Shown here: positions 1 to 12,069 of the stretch, piece after piece | Layout of the letters: each line of letters starts with the position of its first letter | Numbering within the stretch: the stretch's first letter is position 1 | Origin: Treponema sp. | Lineage (GTDB): Bacteria; Spirochaetota; Spirochaetia; Treponematales; Treponemataceae | DNA: 12,277 nucleotides | NCBI GenBank assembly: GCA_017421145.1 | Contig: JAFOTA010000252.1 | Location: 1-12,277 of the forward strand | Direction of reading: 5' to 3' | The notes under the pieces: model-generated | Database searches by the model: none | What the model saw: only the letters and a program-made list of their open reading frames with translations | What the model was told of the DNA's origin: nothing | Program-made: the position numbers and the translations under genes

Positions 1-540
1 GGCTCGCTTGTAACCGGGGTCTGTGTTGTAACAGTGGTCTGAGTTGTATATCCAGGCTGGGTTGTTGTGACAGTCGTTTGTCCAGATGGTCTTGTTTCTG
101 TGACCGATGGTGTCGTTGTTACAGGAGTCTGGGCAATCTGTGTCGGTTCGCTTGTGACCGGGGTCTGTGTTGTGTATTCAGGCTGTGTTGTTGTGACGGT
201 TGTTTGTCCAGATGGTCTTGTTTCTGTAACTGATGGTGTCGTTGTTACAGGAGTCTGGGCAATATATGTCGGCTCGCTTGTGACCGGGGTCTGGGTTGTA
301 ACAGTAGTCTGAGTTGTGTATCCAGGCTGGGTTGTTGTGACCGATGGTGTCGTTGTTACAGGAGTCTGAGCAATCTGTGTCGGCTCAGTTGTGACCGGGG
401 TCTGGGTTGTAACAGTGGTCTGAGTTGTATATGCCGGTTCGTTTGTGACCGGGGTCTGTGTTGTGACCGATGTTTGTCCAGATGGTCTTGTTTCTGTGAC
501 CGATGGTGTCGTTGTTACAGGAGTCTGAGCAATGTATGTC
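1..540 (-). repeat. in-frame Thr/Val/Pro-rich repeat tract in the coding sequence
   Basis: The last 180 or so visible codons of the exported protein are imperfect repeats built from short modules: IAQTPVTTTPSVTETRPSGQ, TVTTQPGYTTQT and PVTSEPT. A DNA landmark (gatggtgtcgttgttaca on the plus strand) occurs at 106, 232, 343 and 502. The spacings are 126, 111 and 159 bases, all multiples of three, so modules have been gained or lost without breaking the frame. The composition (Thr, Val, Pro, Gln) suits an extended surface or periplasm-spanning stalk. The tract continues beyond the left edge, so the copy number is unknown. Confidence 0.92.
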
Positions 541-3191
541 GGCTCAGGATCGGTTTTTTCAAACGCAATGAGTTCTTTCTTTTCTGCCTTTGTGCTTGTT
601 TCCGCAATGACAGGCGTACTTGTTGCTGGCTGCTGCTGTGTAATCTGGGTTGATACAGTCCGCTCGACCGGTTTTTCTCCAACAACAACTGTTGCACCCG
701 CATCCGTATATGTCTTTGTATCAGCCGGCTGTGTCTTTGCAATCAGCTGATAGTCGCTTATCATGACAGGATCTGTATTTCCGAAATCTGGTTCCGGCAA
801 TCTGAGCTGTGCAATCAGTCCCGGGAGTTCCTGAACCAATACAGACGGATCATCAAGCTTGGCATAAGGATCTTCAGGCACTTTTTCATAAGATTGGGTG
901 TCAGCTATTATTGCATCAGGACGAAGCACGGAAGAAGGATCTGTCATGTCCGTAAGCTGTGCAAAAAGATTTGCAGTGTCGCTGTCAACGAAATCAGATG
1001 AATTTGCACCGTCAGAAGTAACGAATCCGTTTTCATCTTCACGGCTGGCCAATTCCGCCTGCTGTTCAAAAGTTCCGTCATTGATTATACCGGAGTCGAA
1101 TTCACCGCGGTCCCATATGGTCAAAGAAAGCCTGTCGGCAAGAGAATAGCTTCTTCCCCTTGTTTCTTCAAACGCACCGAGATATCTGTATTCGTTTGCA
1201 AGTTCCGGATTTTTATTGCGCAGATAATTATAGGCCTTGTCACACTCATCGAAATTCTCAAGCTCATAGTTGCAGCGTGCTACACCAAGCATGGCAAGGT
1301 CATTTTCAGGATCTTTTTCCAAAACCTGCTTATACCATTCAAGCGCAATGGCAAACTGCTTTCTTGCAAAATAAACGTTGGCGGTGTTCAGCAAAGACGG
1401 AAGATATCCGTTGCGGCGTGCTCTTTTGAACTGATCATCGGCTTCGACAAAAAGTCCGTACTCACCGTAAAGGATTCCAAGCTCATTTCTAAGCTGATCA
1501 GACTCATTGCGGGCAAGAAGCATGTTGTATTGAGAAATTACAGGAGAAATTTCCTTTGCAATCCAGTTGTCCATGCTGTGCTGGAAAAGCCTTGTAACGA
1601 TTTTCTGCTCAGGAAGCGTAAAGTTTGCCGTTGCACCAGGAACGCTTACAGGCTCATACAGTTTCCAACAATCTTCCATTGCATAGAACATACGGTCTTC
1701 AGGCGCAGTGGTTGTCCATTCCCTTGCACCCACTTTCCATGCCCGGCTGAATCCTTCATCTGTCAGCGTGATTTCAAGCGGAATCCATGCTTCACCGTCA
1801 CCTTTCAGGTCAAAAAGATTTGAGGTGTTCATCATGGATTGTCCGGCTTCTTTCATCGTGAGTCCTGAATCAAATGCCATGAAAATATGCCCCGGAATGG
1901 TTATGAATCCGGTTTTGATTCCGACTGCCTCAAAAAGCGAGCAGACAAGGATTGAAATATCGTCACAGTCACCGCCGCGGTATGTAAGCGTCTGGAACGG
2001 GAACTGAAGGAAGTCTATGGAAGAACCGCCGACATTATCAGAATATGCAGATGACGGGTCGATTACATAATTAAGACCGAACTGATCGAGCGTCTCAAAA
2101 ATTCCCATGGCGTACTGGATGTTCTGTGAAATCCTGGTTGCAGGACGGGCATTGTCGCGGACAATAGAGCTTATGTATTTTGCAAACCAAAGTGCCGCAG
2201 GATCTTTTGAAGAAACAAAAACCGCCGCACGCCTGTCATCGTCCCAGCTCATTGAGTTGCGGCCGTAGACTGGAACGATCATACCGATTTCTTTTTTCTT
2301 CTTTTTTCCGAGATAAGAATATTCTATTATAACCGTCGCTTCTGTATCAGTCTTTTCTGTCAAATCAAGCATGCGCTCGTTAAAGAACGCAGTCAGCTCT
2401 GCATTGACCGTTTCGCCCGAACCAAGCTTATCTACTTTTGCACAGACGTTCGGCTGGTTCATGAACTGGCTCTGATAAAAGCTTACCGTCACGTCTTCAA
2501 TCGCGGCATCTTCCTGATTCGTGATTCCTACGGTGGCAAAGGCATTGTTCTTGTACCAAGAATACAAAACAGGGAAAACAGGCAGAAGCTCGTTCGTCTC
2601 CATTTTGACCTTTGTAGTATCAGTGAAGGCTTCGGTAAGATTTACAGTCAAAGCGGCAGATCCACCGGCATCGGTCAAAAGCGGCTGAGGACTTGCGGCA
2701 TAATGAGAAACGTTTGCTCCTGCTTCAATAGAAACAACCGGATTCAATCTGTAGGTGAAAGACACGCTCAATCCGGCTGTAGGTCCAGTAACCATTCCGT
2801 CGGATTTGCTTGCCATGTATGCACCGGCCTGTGCGCTCAGATTAAGGCCAAGTCGGTCGTTAAGCTTGAAATGATAGCCTGCACCGGCAGAAATGCTCAT
2901 CAAATCAACTGGAGAAAGCTTGTCGATTGCAAGCCTCTTATAATCACCCTGAAGGAAAAAGTCCAGGCTGTCACCCTTGCGGTAAGTGAGCTTTGCACCA
3001 AGACCATAATCATAATCAATGCCTGCGGCTGAACCAAAAGCTTTTCCTGCGTTCGGGATAAGAGTCAAAAGCACATCATCATTGCTCCAAACCGGGAATG
3101 TACCGAGACATACCATCATACCGGTAGCAAGGAGGCACTTTTTCTGAGACTTCTTTTTAAGGTTCCTGGATTTTTTTGACGACCTTTTCAC
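1..3191 (-). CDS. exported barrel-transglutaminase-TPR protein with C-terminal Thr/Val/Pro repeats (3' end outside window)
   Basis: One open frame runs from a GTG at 3191 to the left edge, giving 1063 codons with no stop, so the C-terminus is missing. The GTG has a GGAGG (3203-3199) seven bases upstream. Residues 1-36 form a signal peptide with a very basic n-region and a likely cut after VWS. Residues about 37-185 are beta-rich with alternating polar and hydrophobic residues, like an outer-membrane barrel. A beta-sandwich-like stretch follows, up to about residue 310. Residues about 350-500 are transglutaminase-like: GGDCDD (Cys409), PGHIFMAF (His435) and WIPLEI (Glu473 at the usual Asp position). 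Residues about 560-678 hold three to four TPR-like units. An acidic Asp/Ser/Glu-rich linker leads to the repeats at residue 885 onward. The fold is seen by motif. An amide-crosslinking, peptidase or amidase activity on envelope proteins is inferred. The gene lies 2 nt behind its paralogue and is probably translationally coupled to it. Confidence 0.88.
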   Translation of the reverse strand, partial: MKRSSKKSRNLKKKSQKKCLLATGMMVCLGTFPVWSNDDVLLTLIPNAGKAFGSAAGIDYDYGLGAKLTYRKGDSLDFFLQGDYKRLAIDKLSPVDLMSISAGAGYHFKLNDRLGLNLSAQAGAYMASKSDGMVTGPTAGLSVSFTYRLNPVVSIEAGANVSHYAASPQPLLTDAGGSAALTVNLTEAFTDTTKVKMETNELLPVFPVLYSWYKNNAFATVGITNQEDAAIEDVTVSFYQSQFMNQPNVCAKVDKLGSGETVNAELTAFFNERMLDLTEKTDTEATVIIEYSYLGKKKKKEIGMIVPVYGRNSMSWDDDRRAAVFVSSKDPAALWFAKYISSIVRDNARPATRISQNIQYAMGIFETLDQFGLNYVIDPSSAYSDNVGGSSIDFLQFPFQTLTYRGGDCDDISILVCSLFEAVGIKTGFITIPGHIFMAFDSGLTMKEAGQSMMNTSNLFDLKGDGEAWIPLEITLTDEGFSRAWKVGAREWTTTAPEDRMFYAMEDCWKLYEPVSVPGATANFTLPEQKIVTRLFQHSMDNWIAKEISPVISQYNMLLARNESDQLRNELGILYGEYGLFVEADDQFKRARRNGYLPSLLNTANVYFARKQFAIALEWYKQVLEKDPENDLAMLGVARCNYELENFDECDKAYNYLRNKNPELANEYRYLGAFEETRGRSYSLADRLSLTIWDRGEFDSGIINDGTFEQQAELASREDENGFVTSDGANSSDFVDSDTANLFAQLTDMTDPSSVLRPDAIIADTQSYEKVPEDPYAKLDDPSVLVQELPGLIAQLRLPEPDFGNTDPVMISDYQLIAKTQPADTKTYTDAGATVVVGEKPVERTVSTQITQQQPATSTPVIAETSTKAEKKELIAFEKTDPEPTYIAQTPVTTTPSVTETRPSGQTSVTTQTPVTNEPAYTTQTTVTTQTPVTTEPTQIAQTPVTTTPSVTTTQPGYTTQTTVTTQTPVTSEPTYIAQTPVTTTPSVTETRPSGQTTVTTTQPEYTTQTPVTSEPTQIAQTPVTTTPSVTETRPSGQTTVTTTQPGYTTQTTVTTQTPVTSE

Positions 3192-3193
3192 CG

Positions 3194-5152
3194 CTAATCC
3201 TCCAGTTTTCCCAAGACACGGTTCAAGCCTTTCAACGCCGTTGCATTGGAAGGTTCTATTGCAAGAGCACGTTCATACCAGTCTTTTGCATCAACATACC
3301 TGTTCTGAAGCACCGCTATGTTGCCAAGGTTGTTCATTGCAGCTACAGAACCCATTGCGGCCGCCCTTTCATACACAGGGATCGCGCTTGAATAAATTCC
3401 TGCCCTTACGTAAAGGAGTCCCAGTTTGTTGAGAAGCTCCACGCTGATTCCCTGCTCTTTCATCTGATACTGCACCGCTGCAATCTGCGGACCATATTCA
3501 GTGGTGATGTAGCGTGACATATCGATTTCTACGGCAGCGATAAGATTTGCTTCCAAAGGAGATTCAAATGAACCAGAACCAGTGAAGCTTGCAGGAGGAT
3601 AAATCGACCATCCGTCTTTTACCATATAGAACGATTCATCCTCGTCGTTTTCTGCACCTTCCATCAGCTCGTTGATTGCGTTGTACCAGCTGTTGACGAA
3701 GCCTTCTTTTAGAGTTGACATGGAAACAGGAATCCATACCTTTTCATCTATTATAATGGCTCTGTCAGTGCCGTCCATCATCGCACCGATTTTTGATTCA
3801 GCCTGGTTCATATCAATCAAAACAATAAAATCATTTGAAAGCGGAATATAGCCAGCCTCGATACCTGCCGCCTCAAGCAAGGCCATGAAAAGGATTCCCA
3901 GATCATCCACGTCGCCGGATTTATAAAGCATGGTCTGCGCCGGATACTGGATATAATCCAAAAGCTCGTCGTCCATGTGATATTCTTCATACGGAGTTGC
4001 GTTGTCCGCCTTGCATTCGATTCCGCTCAACCTGATTCCTTCAAAAAGATACATTGCAAACTGAAGGTTTCTGTTCAATCCTGAACGGAGCTGGTTTCTT
4101 GCAACACCGACGATGGTTTTTGAAAGCTTTATGACATCTTCCGATGTGGATGAAATGTATGCAGACAAAATCTGCGGATCCATCCAGCGCACCTGATTGC
4201 GGTTATATACCGACACGATCACAGGCTCTATGGTCTTCAGCTTTTTACCGAGAAGCTCATATTCGATTATAACTTCACCCGGAATGTCACCTGCCTCGCT
4301 GAACTGCATGATTCTGTTGTTGAAGTCGGCAAGCAGAGGAACATCCCTTGTTTCACCCTTGAAAATCTTGTCCACTACGCCGCACAAAAGATCAGATGCA
4401 GTATATCCGTCTGCCCTGAAACTTACGCGCACATTCTGGATTTCAGCAGACTCGCCGTTTTCTATATAAAGCGTACCAATCTGATTTTCCTTGTACATGG
4501 TAGAAATAAGAGGGAAAACCCTGTCATCCTGCTCGGACGTTATTTTCACACGGTGAATCAGCTTTTCGGTTTCAAGCTTGAATTTTACGGAAATGCCCAC
4601 GCTCAATCCGGCCATACCAGGCTCCCCGAACCAGGAATGCGACTGATAATTGAACCAAGTGACATTGAGACCCAACGAAAGATTCGGATTGACTCTGAAC
4701 ATTACGTCACCATATGCCTTATACCACGGAGCATACATCGTCCTGATGTCATCCCTGCTCACGCTGTTTATGCCCATGGCAATCCCGAATCCCAAGCCGC
4801 CTGAAAGCTCCACCCTTGACCAAGGATAGGCAAAAAATTCCATGCGCACGCCAAGTGGGAAAAAAAGCAGAACTTTGCTGGTTCCCTCTTCAAGCTCCTC
4901 AAACTGATTCTTCGGCATGACGAACCCACCCAAGCTCAATCCCACGTTCATGAAGTTGGTAACGTTGATACCAGTTTCAAAAAATCCGTTGAATCCGACA
5001 GGAGCATAATATTTATCGGCTGACAAAAAAGGCAGCATCGCTCCAGGCGTAACCTTGAAAGAAATTTCATACGCAGACACTGGAACGATAAAAAAGAGAC
5101 CCATCAACATAAAACCGCAAATTTTCTTACGAAAACCATGCGTTCTTTCCAT
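3194..5152 (-). CDS. exported barrel-transglutaminase-TPR paralogue with a degenerate (inactive) transglutaminase site
   Basis: The start chosen is ATG 5152, giving 652 aa. It is preceded by GGGG at 6 nt and opens a normal signal peptide: MERTHGFRKK, a hydrophobic core, and a cut after VSA. An in-frame GTG at 5236 (680 aa) also has AAGGGG upstream, but would put about 40 residues before the hydrophobic core. The order is a beta-rich barrel-like domain (residues 56-220 in 680-aa numbering), a beta-sandwich-like region (230-345), a transglutaminase-like domain (390-515) and TPR-like units (590-675). It aligns throughout with the next gene, for example IIEYELLGKK against IIEYSYLGKK. The catalytic Cys is Val443 (GDVDD), the His is Asp469 (SNDFIV) and the acidic residue is Ser505 (WIPVSM), so enzymatic activity is unlikely. 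A structural or regulatory partner of the downstream active copy is inferred. It lacks the Thr/Pro tail and ends after the TPRs. Confidence 0.9.
   Translation of the reverse strand: MERTHGFRKKICGFMLMGLFFIVPVSAYEISFKVTPGAMLPFLSADKYYAPVGFNGFFETGINVTNFMNVGLSLGGFVMPKNQFEELEEGTSKVLLFFPLGVRMEFFAYPWSRVELSGGLGFGIAMGINSVSRDDIRTMYAPWYKAYGDVMFRVNPNLSLGLNVTWFNYQSHSWFGEPGMAGLSVGISVKFKLETEKLIHRVKITSEQDDRVFPLISTMYKENQIGTLYIENGESAEIQNVRVSFRADGYTASDLLCGVVDKIFKGETRDVPLLADFNNRIMQFSEAGDIPGEVIIEYELLGKKLKTIEPVIVSVYNRNQVRWMDPQILSAYISSTSEDVIKLSKTIVGVARNQLRSGLNRNLQFAMYLFEGIRLSGIECKADNATPYEEYHMDDELLDYIQYPAQTMLYKSGDVDDLGILFMALLEAAGIEAGYIPLSNDFIVLIDMNQAESKIGAMMDGTDRAIIIDEKVWIPVSMSTLKEGFVNSWYNAINELMEGAENDEDESFYMVKDGWSIYPPASFTGSGSFESPLEANLIAAVEIDMSRYITTEYGPQIAAVQYQMKEQGISVELLNKLGLLYVRAGIYSSAIPVYERAAAMGSVAAMNNLGNIAVLQNRYVDAKDWYERALAIEPSNATALKGLNRVLGKLED
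3199..3203 (-). promoter_or_regulatory. Shine-Dalgarno deciding the GTG start at 3191
   Basis: A GGAGG on the minus strand lies 7 nt before the GTG at 3191 and inside the last sense codons (Leu-Glu-Asp) of the upstream gene. Its position supports the GTG over later starts and points to translational coupling across the 2-nt junction. Confidence 0.75.
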
Positions 5153-5183
5153 TTTTTTCCCCACTTTTTTAACAGCACGCATC

Positions 5184-5218
5184 AAGCCGGGCAACGGTTT
5201 TATATGCAAACCCGGCTT
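5184..5218 (-). promoter_or_regulatory. 5' leader hairpin of the exported-protein operon
   Basis: A perfect 8-bp inverted repeat (AAGCCGGG at 5184-5191, CCCGGCTT at 5211-5218) encloses a 19-nt loop, just upstream of the preferred ATG at 5152. No U-run follows on either strand, so it is not an intrinsic terminator. It would sit in the mRNA leader if translation starts at 5152. A 12-codon frame (ATG 5238, stop TAA 5202-5200) ends inside the loop. Confidence 0.5.
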
Positions 5219-5247
5219 ATCCCCATTATCGAACACATCAACCCCTT

Positions 5248-5277
5248 TGTATACTACCTGATTGGGGAGTTTTTAAA
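5248..5277 (-). promoter_or_regulatory. weak candidate promoter for the exported-protein operon
   Basis: TTTAAA (5277-5272) and TATACA (5253-5248) are separated by 18 nt on the minus strand, each 4 of 6 to consensus. Transcription would begin near 5241. That leaves about 90 nt of leader before ATG 5152 and almost none before GTG 5236. A weak core promoter would fit activation by the divergent LuxR-type regulator. Confidence 0.3.
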
Positions 5278-5306
5278 GAAATTCATCAAATTTTTTGTGA
5301 ATTTTA

Positions 5307-5317
5307 CCAAATTTTGG
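5307..5317. promoter_or_regulatory. candidate operator dyad between divergent promoters
   Basis: CCAAA-T-TTTGG is a perfect 5-bp-arm dyad around one central base. It lies between the divergent start sites and 13 bp upstream of the -35 of the regulator gene. The octamer CAAATTTT occurs at 5287 and again at 5308, exactly 21 bp apart (two helical turns). LuxR-family dimers bind such spaced or dyad sites, but the AT-rich context makes chance a real alternative. Confidence 0.3.
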
Positions 5318-5329
5318 CCGTTTTTCATT

Positions 5330-5358
5330 TTGACAAACAACTGTCAGTACCATATAGT
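5330..5358 (+). promoter_or_regulatory. sigma-70 promoter of the LuxR-type regulator gene
   Basis: TTGACA (5330-5335), a 17-bp spacer and TATAGT (5353-5358) match consensus at 11 of 12 positions. Transcription should begin near 5365, leaving a leader of about 40 nt before ATG 5404, which has AGAGGG close upstream. Confidence 0.8.
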
Positions 5359-5403
5359 TAAACATAATCGGTAAATATTGAATTACTTTAAAAAAGAGGG
5401 CTT

Positions 5404-7902
5404 ATGTCAGAAAAAAATGGGTCAGAAACAATAAATCCGCCTGTGCCGAGTGCAAATCCGTATATCACACCGGAAAAGGCATGGGAAAAAATTGCCCTTG
5501 CCCGCCATGATTTCAGTCCCATGTATATCAGCGGAATGTCGAGCTACGGAAAAACCGAGCTTGTGAAACAATTTTTCGCCGGAAAGCGTTTCATTTACTA
5601 CGCATTTGAAGACGGAACCGAAAACATTGAGAATTTTTCAAAGAACATAAATCCCGTGCGCAAAACCCCTCTTCCGGTCGTGTTCGATGACCTTCAGTTC
5701 TGCAATGACGATGAAAAACGTGCAAAAATCCTGAACATAGCTTCAAGACCGGACGTACAGCCTATTTTTATCTCGCGCTCGCTTGCACTTGACTGGCTGC
5801 TTCCTTTTTTGACCACGCATGACATGGTTTTCATAACGGAAAATGAGCTTGGCATTACAGTCGAGCAGATTTCAGAATATTTTTCTTCCCTTGGTATAAG
5901 TTATTCGGAAGAAAACATCCAGGAGCTTCAGGATTTTATACTTGGAAATCCCTATGCACTTAAAGTCTCCGCAAAATGCCTGAAAGAAAATCCGGGAACG
6001 ACAGAGCTTATTCCGCAGCTCAAGGAGATTTTTGCAAGATACATGAGGTACAGCGTCGTTTATAAATGGCCTGCTGATTTCCTGAATTTTTTCGTGCAGC
6101 TGAGCGTCACAGAATCTTTTACCGTAGAGCTTGCACAGGAAATTACAAAAACTGAATTCGCCTCCCAAATCATATCGAGGGCAAACAATATAGGAAGCTT
6201 TTTGATAAAAAATGATGATTTCTATACATTCCGCCCAATCCCTCTTGCCGGATTTCAAGAGCTTGCAGAACAATCTTTTGGAAGCGAAAAAGTCAGGACA
6301 TTGCGCATAGAAGCCGGAAAATGGTTCTACAATCATGATGAGCCGGAAAAAGCATGCGTCATGTACGAAAAGGCAGATTACCGCAACGGAATAAAAGAAG
6401 TGCTTTTGAAAAACTCAACGCAGAATCCGAGCAACGGTCATTATCTTACGCTTTCACCTTATTATTTCCAGATGGATGAAAAAGAAATTGAAAGCAACGT
6501 AATCCTGATGAGCGGCATGAGCATGATCTGTTCCATGATGTTTAAAATAGAAGAAAGTGACATGTGGCTCGAAAAAATCAAGGAAAGGGTAAAATCTTCC
6601 GCAGGCAAAGAAAAAAACGAGGCAAAAAGGCAGCTCGCATACCTTGAGATAGCATTGCCCCATCATCACAGCGACAACATACTCACTACGATGAAAAACA
6701 TAGCGTCCCTCATAGCAAGCAACGGACTTTCATTGCCGGAATTCTGCATCACGAGCAATCTTCCTTCAATAATGAACGGAGGAAACGATTTCTGCACATG
6801 GTCGCTCAAAGACCGCGAGATTGCACACAAATATGCGAAAATAATCCGCCTGATACTCGGAAAAGACGGAAAAAGCCTTATAAACCTTGCCCTTGCAGAA
6901 AGCCAGTATGAAAAAGCCGGTGACAATACTGAAATACTTTCGTTCATGAGCCGCGGACAGCTTGAGGCAGAACTGGACAACAACATGGAAATGGAATTCG
7001 TTGCCGCAGGTCTTTTGATCAGATTTTATATTTCCACCGGACAGATTGAAATCGCCCAATTGCAGTACAAGGCATTTGAACGTAAATGCAAGGAAAGAAA
7101 AGTATACAAGCTGCTTCCGAATCTCCAGGCACTGCACTGCCGCATGGATTTGTACAAGGGTGATCTTGCAAGCGCACAGCTCTGGATGGAAAAGCAGGCA
7201 CCGAATGAAAACAAAGAAATCTTCGCCATGCTGAGGTTCCAGTATCTGACAAAAATCAGGTGCTATATTACGTTCGGAAATCTGACGGAAGCTTTTGCGC
7301 TGATTGAAAAGATGAAATGGTTTTCAAAGGTTTATACCCGTACATACATATCAATGGAGTGCAAGGTTCTTTCGGCAATCGTCCTTTTCAGGATGCAGGA
7401 TGACAAATGGCGCAATGAAATTGAAGATGCTCTTGAACAGACCCGCAAATTCAATTTCGTGAGGATTATAAGCGATGAGGGAGCCGCCGTACTGCCTTTG
7501 CTTTATGCACTTCAGGAAGATCATATAAAGGAAGAAAAAGAACTCAGGGACAAGGCAAAAAAAGAAAATCCTGAAAAACCATACAGTGCCCCTCAGCCAA
7601 GCCAAAGCCGCAGATGGTTTTTGCACGCACTCCGCCTGACCGAACGCATGAGCCAGCAATATCCGTCATACTGCGCACACACACCAACGCGCCACAAGGA
7701 TTTTTCTGACAATGCACGTACTATCCTTCTTTTACAGATGCAGGGTCTTTCTGCGTCAAAGATTGCTGAAAAAACAGGCATGGGATTTGAAAACGTGCGC
7801 TACCACATAAAGCAGAACTACAAAAAACTCGGAGTCACGTCAAAAAGCGAAGCCATGATTGCAGCAAGGGAGCTTCTGGGCGGTTCAAAACGTATTGATT
7901 GA
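5404..7902 (+). CDS. large ATP-binding LuxR-family (MalT/LAL-type) transcriptional regulator
   Basis: An 832-aa cytoplasmic regulator. Residues 44-51 (GMSSYGKT) are a Walker A motif matching GxxxxGKT. PVVFDDLQF (91-99) is Walker B, and PIFISRS (120-126) resembles sensor 1, so the N-terminal third is a STAND/AAA-type ATPase. Residues about 300-720 are a helical, TPR-like solenoid with no transmembrane segments, the usual inducer-sensing part of MalT-type proteins. Residues 768-826 are a LuxR/GerE helix-turn-helix: LLLQMQGLSASKIAEKTG, then ENVRYHIKQNYKKLGV. No receiver or autoinducer-binding domain is present. In this family, ligand binding with ATP drives oligomerisation and promoter activation. 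The gene is divergent from the exported transglutaminase-like operon across a 250-bp control region, so it probably regulates that operon, itself or both. The ligand cannot be read from the sequence. No plus-strand terminator is visible before the convergent RNA genes. Confidence 0.9.
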   Translation: MSEKNGSETINPPVPSANPYITPEKAWEKIALARHDFSPMYISGMSSYGKTELVKQFFAGKRFIYYAFEDGTENIENFSKNINPVRKTPLPVVFDDLQFCNDDEKRAKILNIASRPDVQPIFISRSLALDWLLPFLTTHDMVFITENELGITVEQISEYFSSLGISYSEENIQELQDFILGNPYALKVSAKCLKENPGTTELIPQLKEIFARYMRYSVVYKWPADFLNFFVQLSVTESFTVELAQEITKTEFASQIISRANNIGSFLIKNDDFYTFRPIPLAGFQELAEQSFGSEKVRTLRIEAGKWFYNHDEPEKACVMYEKADYRNGIKEVLLKNSTQNPSNGHYLTLSPYYFQMDEKEIESNVILMSGMSMICSMMFKIEESDMWLEKIKERVKSSAGKEKNEAKRQLAYLEIALPHHHSDNILTTMKNIASLIASNGLSLPEFCITSNLPSIMNGGNDFCTWSLKDREIAHKYAKIIRLILGKDGKSLINLALAESQYEKAGDNTEILSFMSRGQLEAELDNNMEMEFVAAGLLIRFYISTGQIEIAQLQYKAFERKCKERKVYKLLPNLQALHCRMDLYKGDLASAQLWMEKQAPNENKEIFAMLRFQYLTKIRCYITFGNLTEAFALIEKMKWFSKVYTRTYISMECKVLSAIVLFRMQDDKWRNEIEDALEQTRKFNFVRIISDEGAAVLPLLYALQEDHIKEEKELRDKAKKENPEKPYSAPQPSQSRRWFLHALRLTERMSQQYPSYCAHTPTRHKDFSDNARTILLLQMQGLSASKIAEKTGMGFENVRYHIKQNYKKLGVTSKSEAMIAARELLGGSKRID

Positions 7903-8053: not shown

Positions 8054-8057
8054 GTAG

Positions 8058-8144
8058 CGGAAAGAGGGGGATTCGAACCCCCGATAGACTTTCGCCTATG
8101 CACGCCTTCCAAGCGTGTACCTTAAACCACTCGGACATCTTTCC
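8058..8144 (-). tRNA. tRNA-Ser(GGA)
   Basis: An 87-nt class II tRNA. The acceptor stem GGAAAGA pairs with TCTTTCC and the discriminator is G. The anticodon arm is CACGC-TTGGAAG-GCGTG, giving anticodon GGA (UCC/UCU codons). It has the long variable arm typical of Ser and a T arm GGGGG-TTCGAAT-CCCCC. CCA is not encoded: CTAC follows the discriminator, then the SRP RNA begins. Confidence 0.95.
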
Positions 8145-8365
8145 AAAATTAAAAATACAAAAAAAATACAGGACTTTTTGAATCTGCACCCCACAATCAA
8201 GCGTCTCTTGCTGAATCAACTCGGCTTGACTTTTGAAGCTTTGTTTTACGGAAACAAAATAAGGGAAACATTTTCCAATCTGAAAAATCCAGTCATCAAA
8301 CTGAAAAACCTGCTTACCAAGCTCCCGAAAACCAAATATAATCCAAAAACCTGTAATTATTTATG
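8145..8365 (-). other. 221-nt spacer between tRNA-Arg and tRNA-Ser(GGA)
   Basis: An AT-rich gap inside an otherwise tightly packed RNA cluster. No credible reading frame starts and ends within it, and no strong terminator hairpin or consensus promoter is visible on the minus strand. A plus-strand open frame crossing it starts and ends in antisense tRNA sequence and is not a gene. It could hold a promoter for the last tRNA and the SRP RNA, a small RNA, or the scar of a lost tRNA. Confidence 0.4.
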
Positions 8366-8440
8366 CGAGACTGACACGATTCGAACGTGCGACCCTCACC
8401 TCCGCAGGGTGATGCTCTAACCCAGCTGAGCTACAGTCTC
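8366..8440 (-). tRNA. tRNA-Arg(GCG)
   Basis: A 75-nt class I cloverleaf: acceptor GAGACTG/CAGTCTC, D arm GCTC...GAGC, anticodon arm TCACC-CTGCGGA-GGTGA, T arm GCACG-TTCGAAT-CGTGT, discriminator G. The anticodon GCG would read CGC and CGU (Arg). Many bacteria instead use an A34 (inosine) tRNA for these codons. C35, an Arg identity base, is present. CCA is not encoded. It lies 13 nt after tRNA-Ser(GCT). Confidence 0.92.
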
Positions 8441-8453
8441 AGAAAAAAAATAG

Positions 8454-8538
8454 CGGAGGCGACAGGGGTTGAACCTGCCCGGGCGTTTCCGCACCGACGG
8501 TTTAGCAAACCGTTGTATTACCGCTCTACCACGCCTCC
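8454..8538 (-). tRNA. tRNA-Ser(GCT)
   Basis: An 85-nt class II tRNA with acceptor GGAGGCG/CGCCTCC and anticodon arm ACGGT-TTGCTAA-ACCGT, giving anticodon GCT (AGC/AGU codons). It has a long GC-rich variable arm, T arm GCAGG-TTCAACC-CCTGT and discriminator G. CCA is not encoded. A T8 run (8450-8443) lies in the 13-nt gap before tRNA-Arg, without a separate hairpin. Confidence 0.94.
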
Positions 8539-8575
8539 AAAGTTCCTTGCGAAGCCCTGAGGCTATCAATAAGGA

Positions 8576-8662
8576 CGGAGCGAGAGGGATTTGAACCCCC
8601 GGTACCCGTAAGAGTACAACGGTTTTCAAGACCGCCGCGTTCGACCACTCTGCCATCGCTCC
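8576..8662 (-). tRNA. tRNA-Ser(TGA)
   Basis: An 87-nt class II tRNA with acceptor GGAGCGA/TCGCTCC and anticodon arm GCGGT-CTTGAAA-ACCGT, giving anticodon TGA (UCN codons, mainly UCA/UCG). It has a long variable arm, T arm GGGGG-TTCAAAT-CCCTC and discriminator G. CCA is not encoded. It is the first gene after the cluster promoter, about 10 nt from the predicted start of transcription. Confidence 0.95.
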
Positions 8663-8680
8663 AAACAAATTGTAGATATC

Positions 8681-8748: not shown

Positions 8749-9822
8749 ATGGAAGAAGAACTTGTAGAAGATATAATTGTAGATGCTGTCCTGGCCGGTT
8801 CAGAAATGCCGGAAAACGTGCTTGAAGCAACTAAAGAAGTCACTACCGAAGTAGTCAACCAGACCAAATCAATACTGCACCTGGACCAGATCAAAGAATA
8901 TTTCACCTGGGAAAATTTTCTGAAAGTCATTACGAGCGTCATCGCGATACTGATTTTTTACGTAGCATACAGGCTCATAAAAGCTGCGGTCAAAAAAACG
9001 GCGTCAAAAAAGCTCGAGCCGCATACGGTAAGCATCATAACAAGGGCAATATCCTATGTTTTTTATATCCTCGTGATAATGTACGTGCTGAATCTGTTCG
9101 GTATAAATCTGACGGCAATATGGGGAGCTGCAGGTATAGCCGGAGTTGCGCTTGGTTTTGCGGCACAGACATCCGTGAGCAATCTTATAAGCGGTGTGTT
9201 CGTGGTTGCAGAAAGAGCCATGAAAATCGGTGATTATATAGAAGTTTCCGGTGTAAGCGGCACGGTCGATACAATCGGTCTTTTGAGCGTAACAGTCCAC
9301 ACTCTTGACAACCAGATGATACGCATTCCGAACAGCACGATAATCAACAGCAACCTGGTGAACTACAGCAGATATGAAAAACGCCGCTTTGTTTTCCCCC
9401 TGCCCATCAGCTATGATTCGGACATGGAAACCGCACTGATTGCCGCAAAAGAAATTGCCGACACATGCATTCAAAACGGTCATATTCTTGCAGACCCTGA
9501 ACCCCGCGCTTATTACGACGGATTCAATGAAGCCGTTAACCTGCGTCTTGCAGTTTGGTTTGAGCGTTCCAAATTGATTGATACAAAAAATGCCGTATAC
9601 ACGACCGCAGTGAAAGTTTTCCAAAAATACGGCGTGGTCATTCCGTTCACAAGGTATGACATAAAGATTGTCCCCGATGAACAGCCTGGTTCAAAGAAAG
9701 CAAAAAAATCGGAAAGCAAACCAGAGCCGCCTGCATTGATTTCCAAAAAATCAGAAAAGATAGAAGCCATAGCTGAAAAACCAAAAGCATCGGTAAGGAA
9801 ATCAACGAAGAAGAGCGTATAA
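8749..9822 (+). CDS. MscS-family small-conductance mechanosensitive channel
   Basis: A 357-aa inner-membrane channel that opens under membrane tension to release ions and small solutes during hypo-osmotic shock. Residues 1-50 are acidic and precede TM1 (58-77), TM2 (97-117) and the Gly/Ala-rich pore helix TM3 (122-148). The pore helix contains AIWGAAGIAGVALGFAAQ and leads into the family signature SNLISGVFVVAERAMKIGDY. The beta domain follows with DTIGLLSVTVHTLDNQ and IPNSTI, then the cage domain to about residue 309, ending IPFTRYDIKI. E. coli MscS is 286 aa. The excess here is the N-terminal acidic stretch and a 47-residue Lys/Ser/Pro-rich tail (311-357). The gene is 2 nt before the hydrolase and probably co-transcribed with it. 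The family call is firm, but which MscS paralogue it is cannot be told. Confidence 0.93.
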   Translation: MEEELVEDIIVDAVLAGSEMPENVLEATKEVTTEVVNQTKSILHLDQIKEYFTWENFLKVITSVIAILIFYVAYRLIKAAVKKTASKKLEPHTVSIITRAISYVFYILVIMYVLNLFGINLTAIWGAAGIAGVALGFAAQTSVSNLISGVFVVAERAMKIGDYIEVSGVSGTVDTIGLLSVTVHTLDNQMIRIPNSTIINSNLVNYSRYEKRRFVFPLPISYDSDMETALIAAKEIADTCIQNGHILADPEPRAYYDGFNEAVNLRLAVWFERSKLIDTKNAVYTTAVKVFQKYGVVIPFTRYDIKIVPDEQPGSKKAKKSESKPEPPALISKKSEKIEAIAEKPKASVRKSTKKSV

Positions 9823-9824
9823 AA

Positions 9825-10808
9825 ATGAATGCAGTTCAAATCACCGTCATAGCGGCCGCATCGATTATTGCCGTCATATTCATAATCCTCTCGGTTTTGG
9901 CAAACAAATTGCTGGATGCAACGTTCGTGCCTTCAAGCTCCGGTTGGAAGAAAATGAAATTCACCGAAGAAGAATCCAGAAAAACAGCTTCTAAAGAAAA
10001 GCTTGAAAAAATGGACAAAATGGAAGCCGAAAAAAAATCTGCCGACCACTGGCTTGGGAACACTCCCCATGAAGATTTACAGGTCACAAGTTTTGACGGT
10101 CTCAAACTGCACGGCTTTTTGCTCAAAAATGAAGGAAGCCACAAATATGCCCTGATCATCCACGGTTACAGAGGCAGACTCCGTGAAACAAGCGTTTACG
10201 GCAGGGTCTATCATCAGAACGGATGGAACGTGGTTCTGCCGGAAAACAGGGCATCGGGCATGAGCGGCGGAAAATTCCTGACCATGGGTGCGCTTGAAAA
10301 AAAAGATGTCGTAAAATGGATTGAAAAAATCCTGGAGATTGATAAAGATGCTTCTATAATATTGCACGGTGAAAGCATGGGTGCTGCCACGGTAATGATG
10401 ACTCTCGGCGAAAATCTTCCGCAGAACGTAAAGGCAGCTGTAGAAGACTGCGGATACACGTCCGTATGGAATATGCTGCGCCATGTCTTCAAAGATCTCA
10501 TGAAAAAATCTCCGTTCCCGATGCTGAATCTTACGAATTTCTACAGCAAAATAAGATTCGGATTCAGTTTCAAAAAAGCATCCGCAATAAAAGCAGTTTC
10601 AAAGGCAAAGGTTCCCCTTCTGATTTTCCACGGCGGCTCGGACGATTTGATTCCGAACACAATGGCAAGGGAAATCTACGTGGCAACCGCATCAAAAAAA
10701 GACTGGTTTATAATCCCCGGAGCCGGTCACTGCATGTCCGTGATACTCGAGCCAGATGTATACTGGTCAAAAGTCTGGGAATTTTTGTCAACAAAGGGAA
10801 ATCTGTAG
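9825..10808 (+). CDS. membrane-anchored alpha/beta hydrolase (YqkD/S33-like)
   Basis: A 327-aa protein with one N-terminal transmembrane anchor (residues 5-26, no cleavage site apparent). A charged helical linker follows (42-75), then an alpha/beta-hydrolase domain. HGYRG (113-117) is the oxyanion-hole strand turn. HGESMGA (181-187) is the nucleophile elbow with Ser184. HGGSDDLIP (269-277) supplies Asp273, and GAGHC supplies His302, so the triad is complete. The family includes esterases, lysophospholipases and aminopeptidase-like enzymes; the substrate cannot be deduced. The start overlaps the end of the MscS-family gene region (2-nt gap), with only a weak GAAGAG upstream, so coupled translation is likely. 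Because it follows a channel gene, a role in membrane or envelope maintenance is inferred. Confidence 0.88.
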   Translation: MNAVQITVIAAASIIAVIFIILSVLANKLLDATFVPSSSGWKKMKFTEEESRKTASKEKLEKMDKMEAEKKSADHWLGNTPHEDLQVTSFDGLKLHGFLLKNEGSHKYALIIHGYRGRLRETSVYGRVYHQNGWNVVLPENRASGMSGGKFLTMGALEKKDVVKWIEKILEIDKDASIILHGESMGAATVMMTLGENLPQNVKAAVEDCGYTSVWNMLRHVFKDLMKKSPFPMLNLTNFYSKIRFGFSFKKASAIKAVSKAKVPLLIFHGGSDDLIPNTMAREIYVATASKKDWFIIPGAGHCMSVILEPDVYWSKVWEFLSTKGNL

Positions 10809-10847
10809 CGGCACAGCTTGAACAAACGCACGGCTTTTTTATAGAAT

Positions 10848-10865
10848 AAAGCTCACAAGCTTTTT
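10848..10865 (+). terminator. weak candidate intrinsic terminator after the hydrolase gene
   Basis: AAAGCT-CACA-AGCTTT forms a 6-bp stem ending in a run of five T. The stem is AU-rich and short, so termination may be partial and the GGDEF gene could receive read-through. Confidence 0.35.
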
Positions 10866-10896
10866 ACAGACGGCATAACATAACACGGGGATAATT

Positions 10897-12069
10897 ATGT
10901 CAAACATTGGATTTTTGGAAGCGGATGCCATATGCCTCATCCTGCTGATTTGGATTATCGTTGAGATTCACACAAAAATAGACAGAAGATTCGAAAACAT
11001 TCTTTTCAAAAGCGCGGTAATTTTAGTCAGCATAATGATTGTATCCGATGCAGGACGGCGCATTTGCAACGGCATTCCCGGAACCATACCGTACATATTC
11101 AACAGCATTTTTTCCGCTTCATTCTATGCAGTGTCAGGATTCGCAGCCGCAACCTACCTTCTCTTCCTTATTGTAGAAAACATGCCCGACAAAAGACGAA
11201 AGCCACCGAGGATTTTACGCGACCTTCCGATGCTTCCGATTGTTTTCCTTTCAGTGATTTCAATCTGCTCGATCTGGACAGGCTGGCTCTTTTCAATCTC
11301 CAAAGAAACCAACGTAAGGGAACACGGTCCGCTTTATTTTTTTGAGCCGGCAATCACATACGCATTTTTCGCGCTTACATCGATATTCCTGATCGTAAAA
11401 CTGGTCACCCACCGCTACGACTCCACGCAGGCGCACAACAGGAGAATAATCGTCATTCTTTTGGTTGCATCAGGAATCGTACACTTGTTCATAACGTCAA
11501 CCGCAACGATATGGCTTGCAATCTCCGTTTCAATAGTCCTGATCTACATGGAGCTTCAGATAAAGCAGATTTCAATCGATGAGCTGACGAACGTGAACAA
11601 CAGGCGTTCATTCAACAATTACCTGAATCTTTTGATGAAAGAAGACAGGCAGTCATCTTTTTCCCTGCTGATGTGCGACATAGATTTGTTCAAGCAGATC
11701 AACGACCGCTACGGACATGTCGAAGGTGATTATGCCCTAAGTGCAGTTGCTGCCATACTCAAAGAACAGTGTTCAATCCTTAGTGAAACGGAACTTTATA
11801 TAGCCAGATTCGGCGGAGATGAATTCGCAATCATCTGCACGGCCCCGGAACCTATGAAAATGTCCCAGAAACTTAAAGACAACATAAGGTCAGCATTCAC
11901 CGCCCACAACACCGCAAGCGAAAAATCATACAAAATCAAAATAAGCATAGGCATTGCGGAAGCGGAACCAAGCCTCAGGGATCCGAAGATTCTAATCGCA
12001 AAGGCAGACAAAGCGCTTTACGAGGAAAAGGACATCCATCACAAAAAGCTTTCCAAGCATCTTTTATAG
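10897..12069 (+). CDS. membrane diguanylate cyclase (multi-TM sensor-GGDEF)
   Basis: A 390-aa protein expected to make c-di-GMP from two GTP. Residues 1-220 hold about seven hydrophobic segments (near 8-23, 38-52, 66-94, 110-131, 147-168, 183-201 and 203-218), an unassigned membrane sensor. The cyclase domain starts at DELTNVNNRRSF (228-239). It includes the metal and substrate-binding run DIDLFKQINDRYGHVEGD (261-278) and the intact GGDEF signature (306-310, in ARFGGDEFAII), and ends with KADKALYEEK. The RxxD inhibitory I-site is absent: the positions nine and six residues before GGDEF are Glu297 and Leu300. A GGGG about 7 nt upstream supports ATG 10897. It is 88 nt after the hydrolase and may be partly co-transcribed. 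No EAL or other output domain is present. Confidence 0.93.
   Translation: MSNIGFLEADAICLILLIWIIVEIHTKIDRRFENILFKSAVILVSIMIVSDAGRRICNGIPGTIPYIFNSIFSASFYAVSGFAAATYLLFLIVENMPDKRRKPPRILRDLPMLPIVFLSVISICSIWTGWLFSISKETNVREHGPLYFFEPAITYAFFALTSIFLIVKLVTHRYDSTQAHNRRIIVILLVASGIVHLFITSTATIWLAISVSIVLIYMELQIKQISIDELTNVNNRRSFNNYLNLLMKEDRQSSFSLLMCDIDLFKQINDRYGHVEGDYALSAVAAILKEQCSILSETELYIARFGGDEFAIICTAPEPMKMSQKLKDNIRSAFTAHNTASEKSYKIKISIGIAEAEPSLRDPKILIAKADKALYEEKDIHHKKLSKHLL

Follow-up and report, generated by a model that had tools for sequence, protein, structure and literature searches.

Why should a bacterium keep, directly beside a transglutaminase-like enzyme, a paralogue that lacks all three catalytic residues? 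The question is raised by a stretch of 12,277 nucleotides from a Treponema sp. (contig JAFOTA010000252.1; hereafter the window), in which two tandem genes on the minus strand encode a pseudoenzyme (3194..5152), transcribed first, and its putatively active paralogue (3..3191). Our analysis confirmed that the two represent a conserved pseudoenzyme-enzyme pair in spirochaetes, and the sequences compared make a partner or regulatory role for the copy without the catalytic residues (the dead copy) likely with respect to the copy that retains them (the live copy).

The frame of the pseudoenzyme is open throughout and encodes 652 aa from the ATG at 5152, in agreement with the earlier note on this DNA, which had described it as intact; an alternative in-frame start, the GTG at 5236, gives 680 aa. 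Its stop codon is followed after 2 bases by the GTG at 3191 that starts the active paralogue, whose frame reaches the window edge (base 3) and has its C-terminal end beyond it. A GGAGGA on the same strand (3198..3203), within the final codons of the pseudoenzyme and 6 nt ahead of the partner's GTG, is the likely ribosome-binding site of the active paralogue. Given this motif inside the end of the first gene, both genes are probably on one message, and translational coupling of the two is likely. A scan of positions 3000-5600 returned six promoter-like matches, versus 4.5 in shuffled sequences, and one terminator-like match, versus 2.6, and no inference was drawn from it. The Pro/Thr-rich tail of the active copy is encoded by tandem repeats at 8-545, with units of 18, 36, 54, 111 and 126 bases; among paired live copies, frame length ranges from about 520 to 2,006 aa. 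The rest of the window contains a divergent MalT-like LuxR-type regulator with AAA and TPR regions (5404-7902), which by-eye reading did not find among the 22 commonest neighbour groups of the family loci, four tRNA genes on the minus strand (8057-8663), for Ser(GGA), Arg(GCG), Ser(GCT) and Ser(TGA), and, on the plus strand (8749-12069), genes for an MscS-type channel, an alpha/beta hydrolase and a GGDEF protein.

The two proteins share 31% identity over 510 columns in a single BLASTP comparison (E 1e-69). In a joint alignment, V415, D441 and S477 of the pseudoenzyme (minus-strand codons 3908..3910, 3830..3832 and 3722..3724) occupy the same columns as C409, H435 and E473 of the active paralogue (minus-strand codons 1965..1967, 1887..1889 and 1773..1775), which make up the presumed triad. 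The aligned columns agree with the replacement of Cys, His and Glu by Val, Asp and Ser that the earlier note had claimed, and not one of 76 distinct dead copies surveyed below has His at the His column or Glu at the Glu column, which speaks against chance. The sites had been chosen correctly under the numbers 443, 469 and 505, which count from the GTG at 5236 and become 415, 441 and 477 when counted from the ATG at 5152. Structures were predicted for both proteins, as had been suggested, and an element-by-element comparison of the AlphaFold models places the three sites at matching secondary-structure positions: V415 and C409 are each the first residue of a helix (415-428 and 409-422), D441 lies just ahead of strand 442-451 and H435 opens strand 435-445, while S477 closes strand 471-477 and E473 directly follows strand 467-472. 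The model of the active paralogue has low confidence at 379-402. The Cys-His-acid triad is therefore absent from the window pseudoenzyme (V415/D441/S477) and present in its paralogue, where the acid is Glu and not the usual Asp and which would be expected, from these residues, to be catalytically active.

Each of the two proteins is predicted to have an OmpA-like barrel and, after it, an Ig-like, a transglutaminase-like and a TPR part, to which the active paralogue adds the Pro/Thr repeat tail. In the pseudoenzyme, all on the minus strand, a signal peptide is followed by a predicted eight-strand outer-membrane beta-barrel (4571..5068, residues 29-194), an Ig-like beta-sandwich read by eye from the strands of the model and without a Pfam match (4187..4546, residues 203-322), a transglutaminase-like domain without catalytic residues, identified by the model, Foldseek and homology to the active copy (3593..4177, approximately residues 326-520), and a long helix with C-terminal TPRs (3197..3553, residues 534-652). 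This architecture suggests that both proteins are located in the outer membrane, with the Ig-like, transglutaminase-like and TPR regions on the periplasmic side. The N-terminal eight-strand barrel is of the same size as those of OmpA, NspA and OmpW and seems to be an anchor; unlike in the structures of these proteins, a transglutaminase-like domain follows it.

The transglutaminase core fold is recognisable in the window pseudoenzyme from the BLASTP match to the active copy, the helix and strands of the site, and Foldseek, which matched it to TG2 (3s3j; E 1.3e-3, probability 0.98, with a TM of 0.12 and an rmsd of 15 for the whole chain) and to factor XIIIa (E 2.0e-3, probability 0.99), both matches being globally weak (TM 0.12-0.13, rmsd 15-19). 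The active paralogue matched TG3 (1nug; E 2.4e-3, probability 0.99, TM 0.13-0.14). As in TG2, TG3 and factor XIII, a beta-sandwich precedes the transglutaminase core (Foldseek probability 0.98-0.99, E 1.3e-3 to 5.3e-3), whereas identity to these proteins is only about 10% with TM 0.12-0.14 and rmsd about 14-19 in a multi-domain alignment, and the barrel and TPRs of the spirochaete proteins are absent from them. A catalytically dead member of the transglutaminase family is familiar in erythrocyte band 4.2. The Pfam scan of the window pseudoenzyme gave no transglutaminase match, two relatives (P0039 and P0099) gave such matches below cut-off only, and the active paralogue scored 14.2 bits against Transglut_core, with a cut-off of 23. 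P0039 also matched the barrel family NF047328 with 25.6 bits, far under the cut-off of 130, and PF27340, precomputed for some pseudoenzyme relatives, was not recovered by Pfam scans of four of them. In VIA-align, matches to the barrel and the TPRs took up all rows, and its result bears on these parts and not on the middle domains. Pfam and NCBIfam name nothing in the enzyme family beyond its TPRs. Membership of the anti-phage protein family ProA (NF058533) is not supported, since the scores of the window active copy (24.6 bits; E 3.7e-6, residues 219-486) and of P0149 (33.5 bits; E 7.6e-9, residues 220-493) are far under the cut-off of 1500; the match corresponds to the Ig-like and transglutaminase-like region and covers about 270-280 of 1903 profile positions.

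A core profile detected the family in 56 of 392 Spirochaetota genomes, two runs that scored up to three and up to five candidates per genome giving the same 56. Dead copies are present in 23 of these genomes, all of which also hold a live-type copy, and the remaining 33 have live-type copies only, so that among the 56 no genome has a dead copy without a live-type one. The profile of the dead family matched 47 loci in genome contigs. Relatives that carry a name come from Treponema or other spirochaetes, with the exception of a contig titled Synergistales bacterium (L047), in which the first part of the core was matched in an odd frame with no recognisable triad and which is perhaps mis-binned or chimeric. 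From loci L001-L177 we counted 76 distinct dead copies, leaving out L047, L173 and L175, which lack the triad columns; in this survey live copies that end before His or Glu were classed as live by Cys and score. Five of the matches, which summed to 162, fall outside the 76: one in genome G333 is an additional live-type copy in which the C, H and E motifs are all present, those in G039 and G323 are live-type by score and both cut by contig ends, with the Cys in view in G039, the one in G071 is the second piece of a frame already counted, and the one in G214 is a dead-type fragment described below.

The pairing of the two genes holds throughout this sample. Of the 76 dead copies, 71 immediately precede a live-type partner encoded on their own strand, with a frame-to-frame gap of at most 138 nt; four have the partner 1.1-3.2 kb away and one ends with its contig. 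A live-type partner is thus found within 3.2 kb in 75 of the 75 cases where the sequence permits a view. The full C/H/E is seen in 68 of these partners, and seven are partly visible (three to Cys, three to His, and one short of the site). The partner at L093 is partly visible because of an in-frame TAG in its live-type match (G312:C1:411428-412423), for which an assembly error, a stop or a true loss is possible. In the four separated pairs the intervening sequence is a CHASE2 gene in three and an extra dead copy in one, a truncated frame of 377 aa with V/D/S between the full dead and live copies (L005:9927-11057). A search of 268 frames found no fused dead-live protein. In three loci (L094, L095 and L106) the dead copies have lost GDxDD (GSARD, GSSRD and GSNID) and the GDCDD of their live partners is also altered (GDCSY, GDCTY and GDCSY), which makes co-variation of the two sites possible; the dead copies of L090-L093 lack GDxDD too, yet their partners keep GDCDD.

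To place the copies relative to one another, a quick, unrooted tree was built without bootstrap from 151 rows thinned at about 72% identity, excluding cores shorter than 280 residues and removing the triad columns with their neighbours. One branch (SH-aLRT 100) sets all dead copies apart from the other rows, a second (SH-aLRT 97) does so for the paired live copies, and the single live copies form the remainder (branch support 62); the three labels require two changes on the tree, the minimum possible. The dead state would therefore have a single origin, provided that C/H/E is ancestral, and the tree does not support the triad having been lost separately in numerous lineages. For 54 pairs, the distance matrices of dead and live copies correlate with r 0.950, while partner swaps within 11 multi-pair genomes gave a mean r of 0.604 and a maximum of 0.934, none of 5000 reaching 0.950. 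Together, the tree groups and the correlated distances suggest a single origin of the pair, whose two genes would since have been duplicated and passed on together.

Analysis of the neighbouring genes revealed a further recurrent member of these loci. In 29 loci the gene immediately after the live copy is a large one that belongs to one BLAST group, and a gene of this group immediately precedes the dead copy in four, of which L061 and L093 are one place. The six downstream frames with both ends visible measure 2,655-4,667 aa, many members have a lipoprotein-like signal according to a simple pattern, and scans of two of them showed little that is known except a Big_5 Ig-like domain, below cut-off in one. 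Among paired live copies followed by 700 nt or more of sequence (n=51), the next frame has at least 600 aa in 26 and a lipobox in 24, and among unpaired live copies (n=67) in 13 and 15, respectively; the lipobox baseline, which includes some of the same genes, is 74 of 584 other neighbours. The large gene is not beside every pair, and pairs with short live copies have other neighbours, often a small secreted protein and a CHASE2 gene. A CHASE2 gene was no more than 20 kb from a pair in 17 of 64 cases (16 of 23 genomes), against about 1.4 expected, the limit of 20 kb having been set after the size of the downstream gene was seen; the one that was scanned is a CHASE2 nucleotide cyclase. For the window itself the gene downstream of the live copy lies beyond the end, and among the nearer relatives (L001-L006) it is visible in L005 and L006. 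A small protein near the pairs in 13 loci looked FecR-like by eye, a label that we do not claim, as the similar L180:16280-16933 has no Pfam match. In another set of loci (L150-L159), which carry single live copies, a VCBS/FG-GAP-like protein (by eye) is directly upstream in seven.

We consider it probable, at about 60%, that the enzyme whose gene starts 2 bases further downstream has the dead copy as its non-catalytic partner subunit, in a complex that would act on a large lipoprotein-like protein. The models for this reading are prozyme and AdoMetDC for the pair, and LapG and LapA for enzyme and substrate, both described below. Both copies would sit in the outer membrane through their OmpA-like barrels, with the other parts in the periplasm, and would form a complex there; the live copy would act on the very large lipoprotein-like product that the next gene encodes in relatives, and the dead copy would either recruit this substrate or act as an on-off switch for the live copy, with its former catalytic pocket, by now acidic, as a binding site. 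The physical complex, the direction of regulation and the substrate are what we infer from the genomic comparison. It is possible, though not probable, that the dead copy is instead an independent outer-membrane binding protein, for a peptide, a cell-wall fragment or an ion, and that the tandem is an inherited operon without any contact between its products. The dead copy does keep its own predicted barrel and its TPRs, either of which can bind other molecules, and tight linkage alone would also produce pairing, co-duplication and matching trees, so these are no proof of contact. An independent binder, however, does not sit easily with genes that stay within 3.2 kb in every viewable case across the branches sampled, nor with the presence of a live-type copy in all 23 genomes that have a dead one.

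Pairing of an enzyme with a pseudoenzyme is already known as a kind. In Trypanosoma brucei, prozyme, a dead paralogue, activates live AdoMetDC by heterodimerisation, according to one report (PMC5201418). The spirochaete pair is likewise a dead paralogue with a live one; unlike AdoMetDC and prozyme, which belong to a eukaryote and to another enzyme family, its members are direct gene neighbours with a putative complex and activation, and it is a variant in a family that Pfam and NCBIfam leave unnamed. Searches of an open-licence library of papers turned up none that describes the spirochaete system. A bacterial dead-live pair that stays together across the sampled spirochaete branches and is duplicated as a unit constitutes a strong natural experiment, for which the 54 linked pairs offer a starting set for locating contact sites. 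In gut and rumen treponemes it also links an enzyme family to a lipoprotein-like protein of giant size and to a CHASE2 signalling gene, as one testable system.

A second known system resembles these loci in its components. LapG, as described in PMC4359373, is a periplasmic cysteine protease of transglutaminase fold with a Cys-His-Asp triad and calcium near the active site, which controls the large surface protein LapA and is coupled to a second-messenger protein, its regulator LapD being a c-di-GMP receptor. In many relatives a large gene similarly adjoins the live copy; the points of difference are that its product looks like a lipoprotein and that the frequent signalling neighbour is a CHASE2 protein, a cyclase in the one scanned. 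LapG is soluble; by contrast, the live copy is a predicted barrel protein with Glu as the third residue, and the dead copy is also a predicted barrel protein. Membership of the LapG family has no clear support: the LapG entry 4fgo matched the active copy with E 0.25 over 49 residues and no LapG model was among the Pfam and NCBIfam hits. By analogy, these spirochaete loci might be a second counterpart of the Lap system, tied to a CHASE2 nucleotide cyclase: a protease of transglutaminase-like type in the outer membrane would set free or anchor a giant surface lipoprotein, and the dead paralogue would be the sensor subunit, with an acidic, perhaps calcium-binding, pocket at its former active site that gates the live copy; we regard this more specific scheme as doubtful.

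The residues at the former active site indicate how the pocket of the dead copies has changed. Among the best 120 of 198 pseudoenzyme relatives and the window protein (121 rows, P0001 and P0003 being one protein), all rows but one have D at the His column (120) and the other has E, the Glu column is split between S (109 rows) and A (12), and the Cys column has K in 74, V in 22, C in 9, D, R and A in 5 each and M in 1; in the live family (best 120 of 841 relatives and the window) C/H/E is found in 121 of 121 aligned rows. The 76 distinct dead copies have D in 68, E in 7 and G in 1 at the His column (Asp or Glu in 75/76), S in 61, A in 11, R in 2 and K in 2 at the Glu column (Ser or Ala in 72/76), and 12 residues at the Cys column (K 22, Y 15, V 9, C 8, S 6, A, L and I 4 each, and M, R, E and N 1 each). 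The copies with Cys are scattered (at least 4 changes in 50 tree rows), and none of them has the His or the Glu. On the tree, the 50 dead rows require at least 19 changes at the Cys column, 4 at the His column and 10 at the Glu column, which points to drift at the nucleophile site and, at the other two, to a replacement that has since been mostly retained. The expectation that Val, Asp and Ser would be conserved among orthologues consequently stood for the Asp and Ser sites and failed for the Val, which is ruled out as a conserved key residue; random residues, named in advance as evidence against a retained function, were seen at the former Cys site alone.

The surroundings of these sites changed as well. 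P-G-H forms the His loop in 152 of 157 distinct live copies, and P433-G434-H435 of the live copy corresponds to a mostly acidic stretch in the dead ones: the three positions ending at the former His have a mean of 2.3 acidic residues in dead copies versus 0.03 in live copies, and 68 of the 76 dead copies have at least two. GDxD(D/E) is kept in 67 of 76 and appears as GExDD in two; the motif is gone in seven, so an acidic pocket is not universal. All 34 paired live rows share Y375, P433, G434 and T475, residues that the dead rows do not preserve: Tyr stands at the Y375 column in 18 of 50 and Thr at the T475 column in 4 of 50. We infer that the former active site of the dead copy may be a binding pocket, perhaps for a cation. 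The constancy of Asp or Glu and of Ser or Ala, together with the acidic loop, could also point to new chemistry, in which Asp and Ser, with Lys at the former Cys site in some copies, make up another active site or a metal site, in which case the dead copy would not strictly be a pseudoenzyme. We find this improbable, given that the former Cys site is unfixed and is Val in the window protein, and that the Ser gives way to Ala in 11 and to Arg or Lys in 4 of the 76; within such a reading a cation site would be a better fit than a catalytic one.

The dN/dS values in relatives indicate purifying selection on the dead copy. In the printed comparisons with dS of 0.05-1.1, dead copies gave 0.055-0.198, low as the earlier note had anticipated, and live copies 0.023-0.226; one dead-copy comparison with dS 0.023 gave 0.27. 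These values come from 40 printed comparisons, some of which are one organism pair sampled twice, and those of the window pseudoenzyme itself are saturated (dS above 2) and unreliable. No internal stop occurs in the dead-copy matches among the matches listed. With the catalytic motif lost, the fold kept and purifying selection present in relatives, the dead copy has the features of a pseudoenzyme and is presumably catalytically inactive. That selection maintains the dead copy in some non-catalytic capacity linked to its active neighbour, for which scaffold, regulator and decoy are candidates, is well supported by dN/dS, the held Asp/Glu and Ser/Ala, the single branch, the duplication as a unit and the pairing. 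That the dead copy is a decaying duplicate heading for loss is extremely improbable, because the low dN/dS, the open frames and the one old origin contradict pseudogene decay of the family as a whole, even though the triad is lost and single copies do decay, as the truncated copy in L005 and a fragment beside the G214 pair show. The latter is a dead-type frame of 133 aa just upstream of a dead-live pair (L189:2380-2778) and is likely the remnant of a further dead copy.
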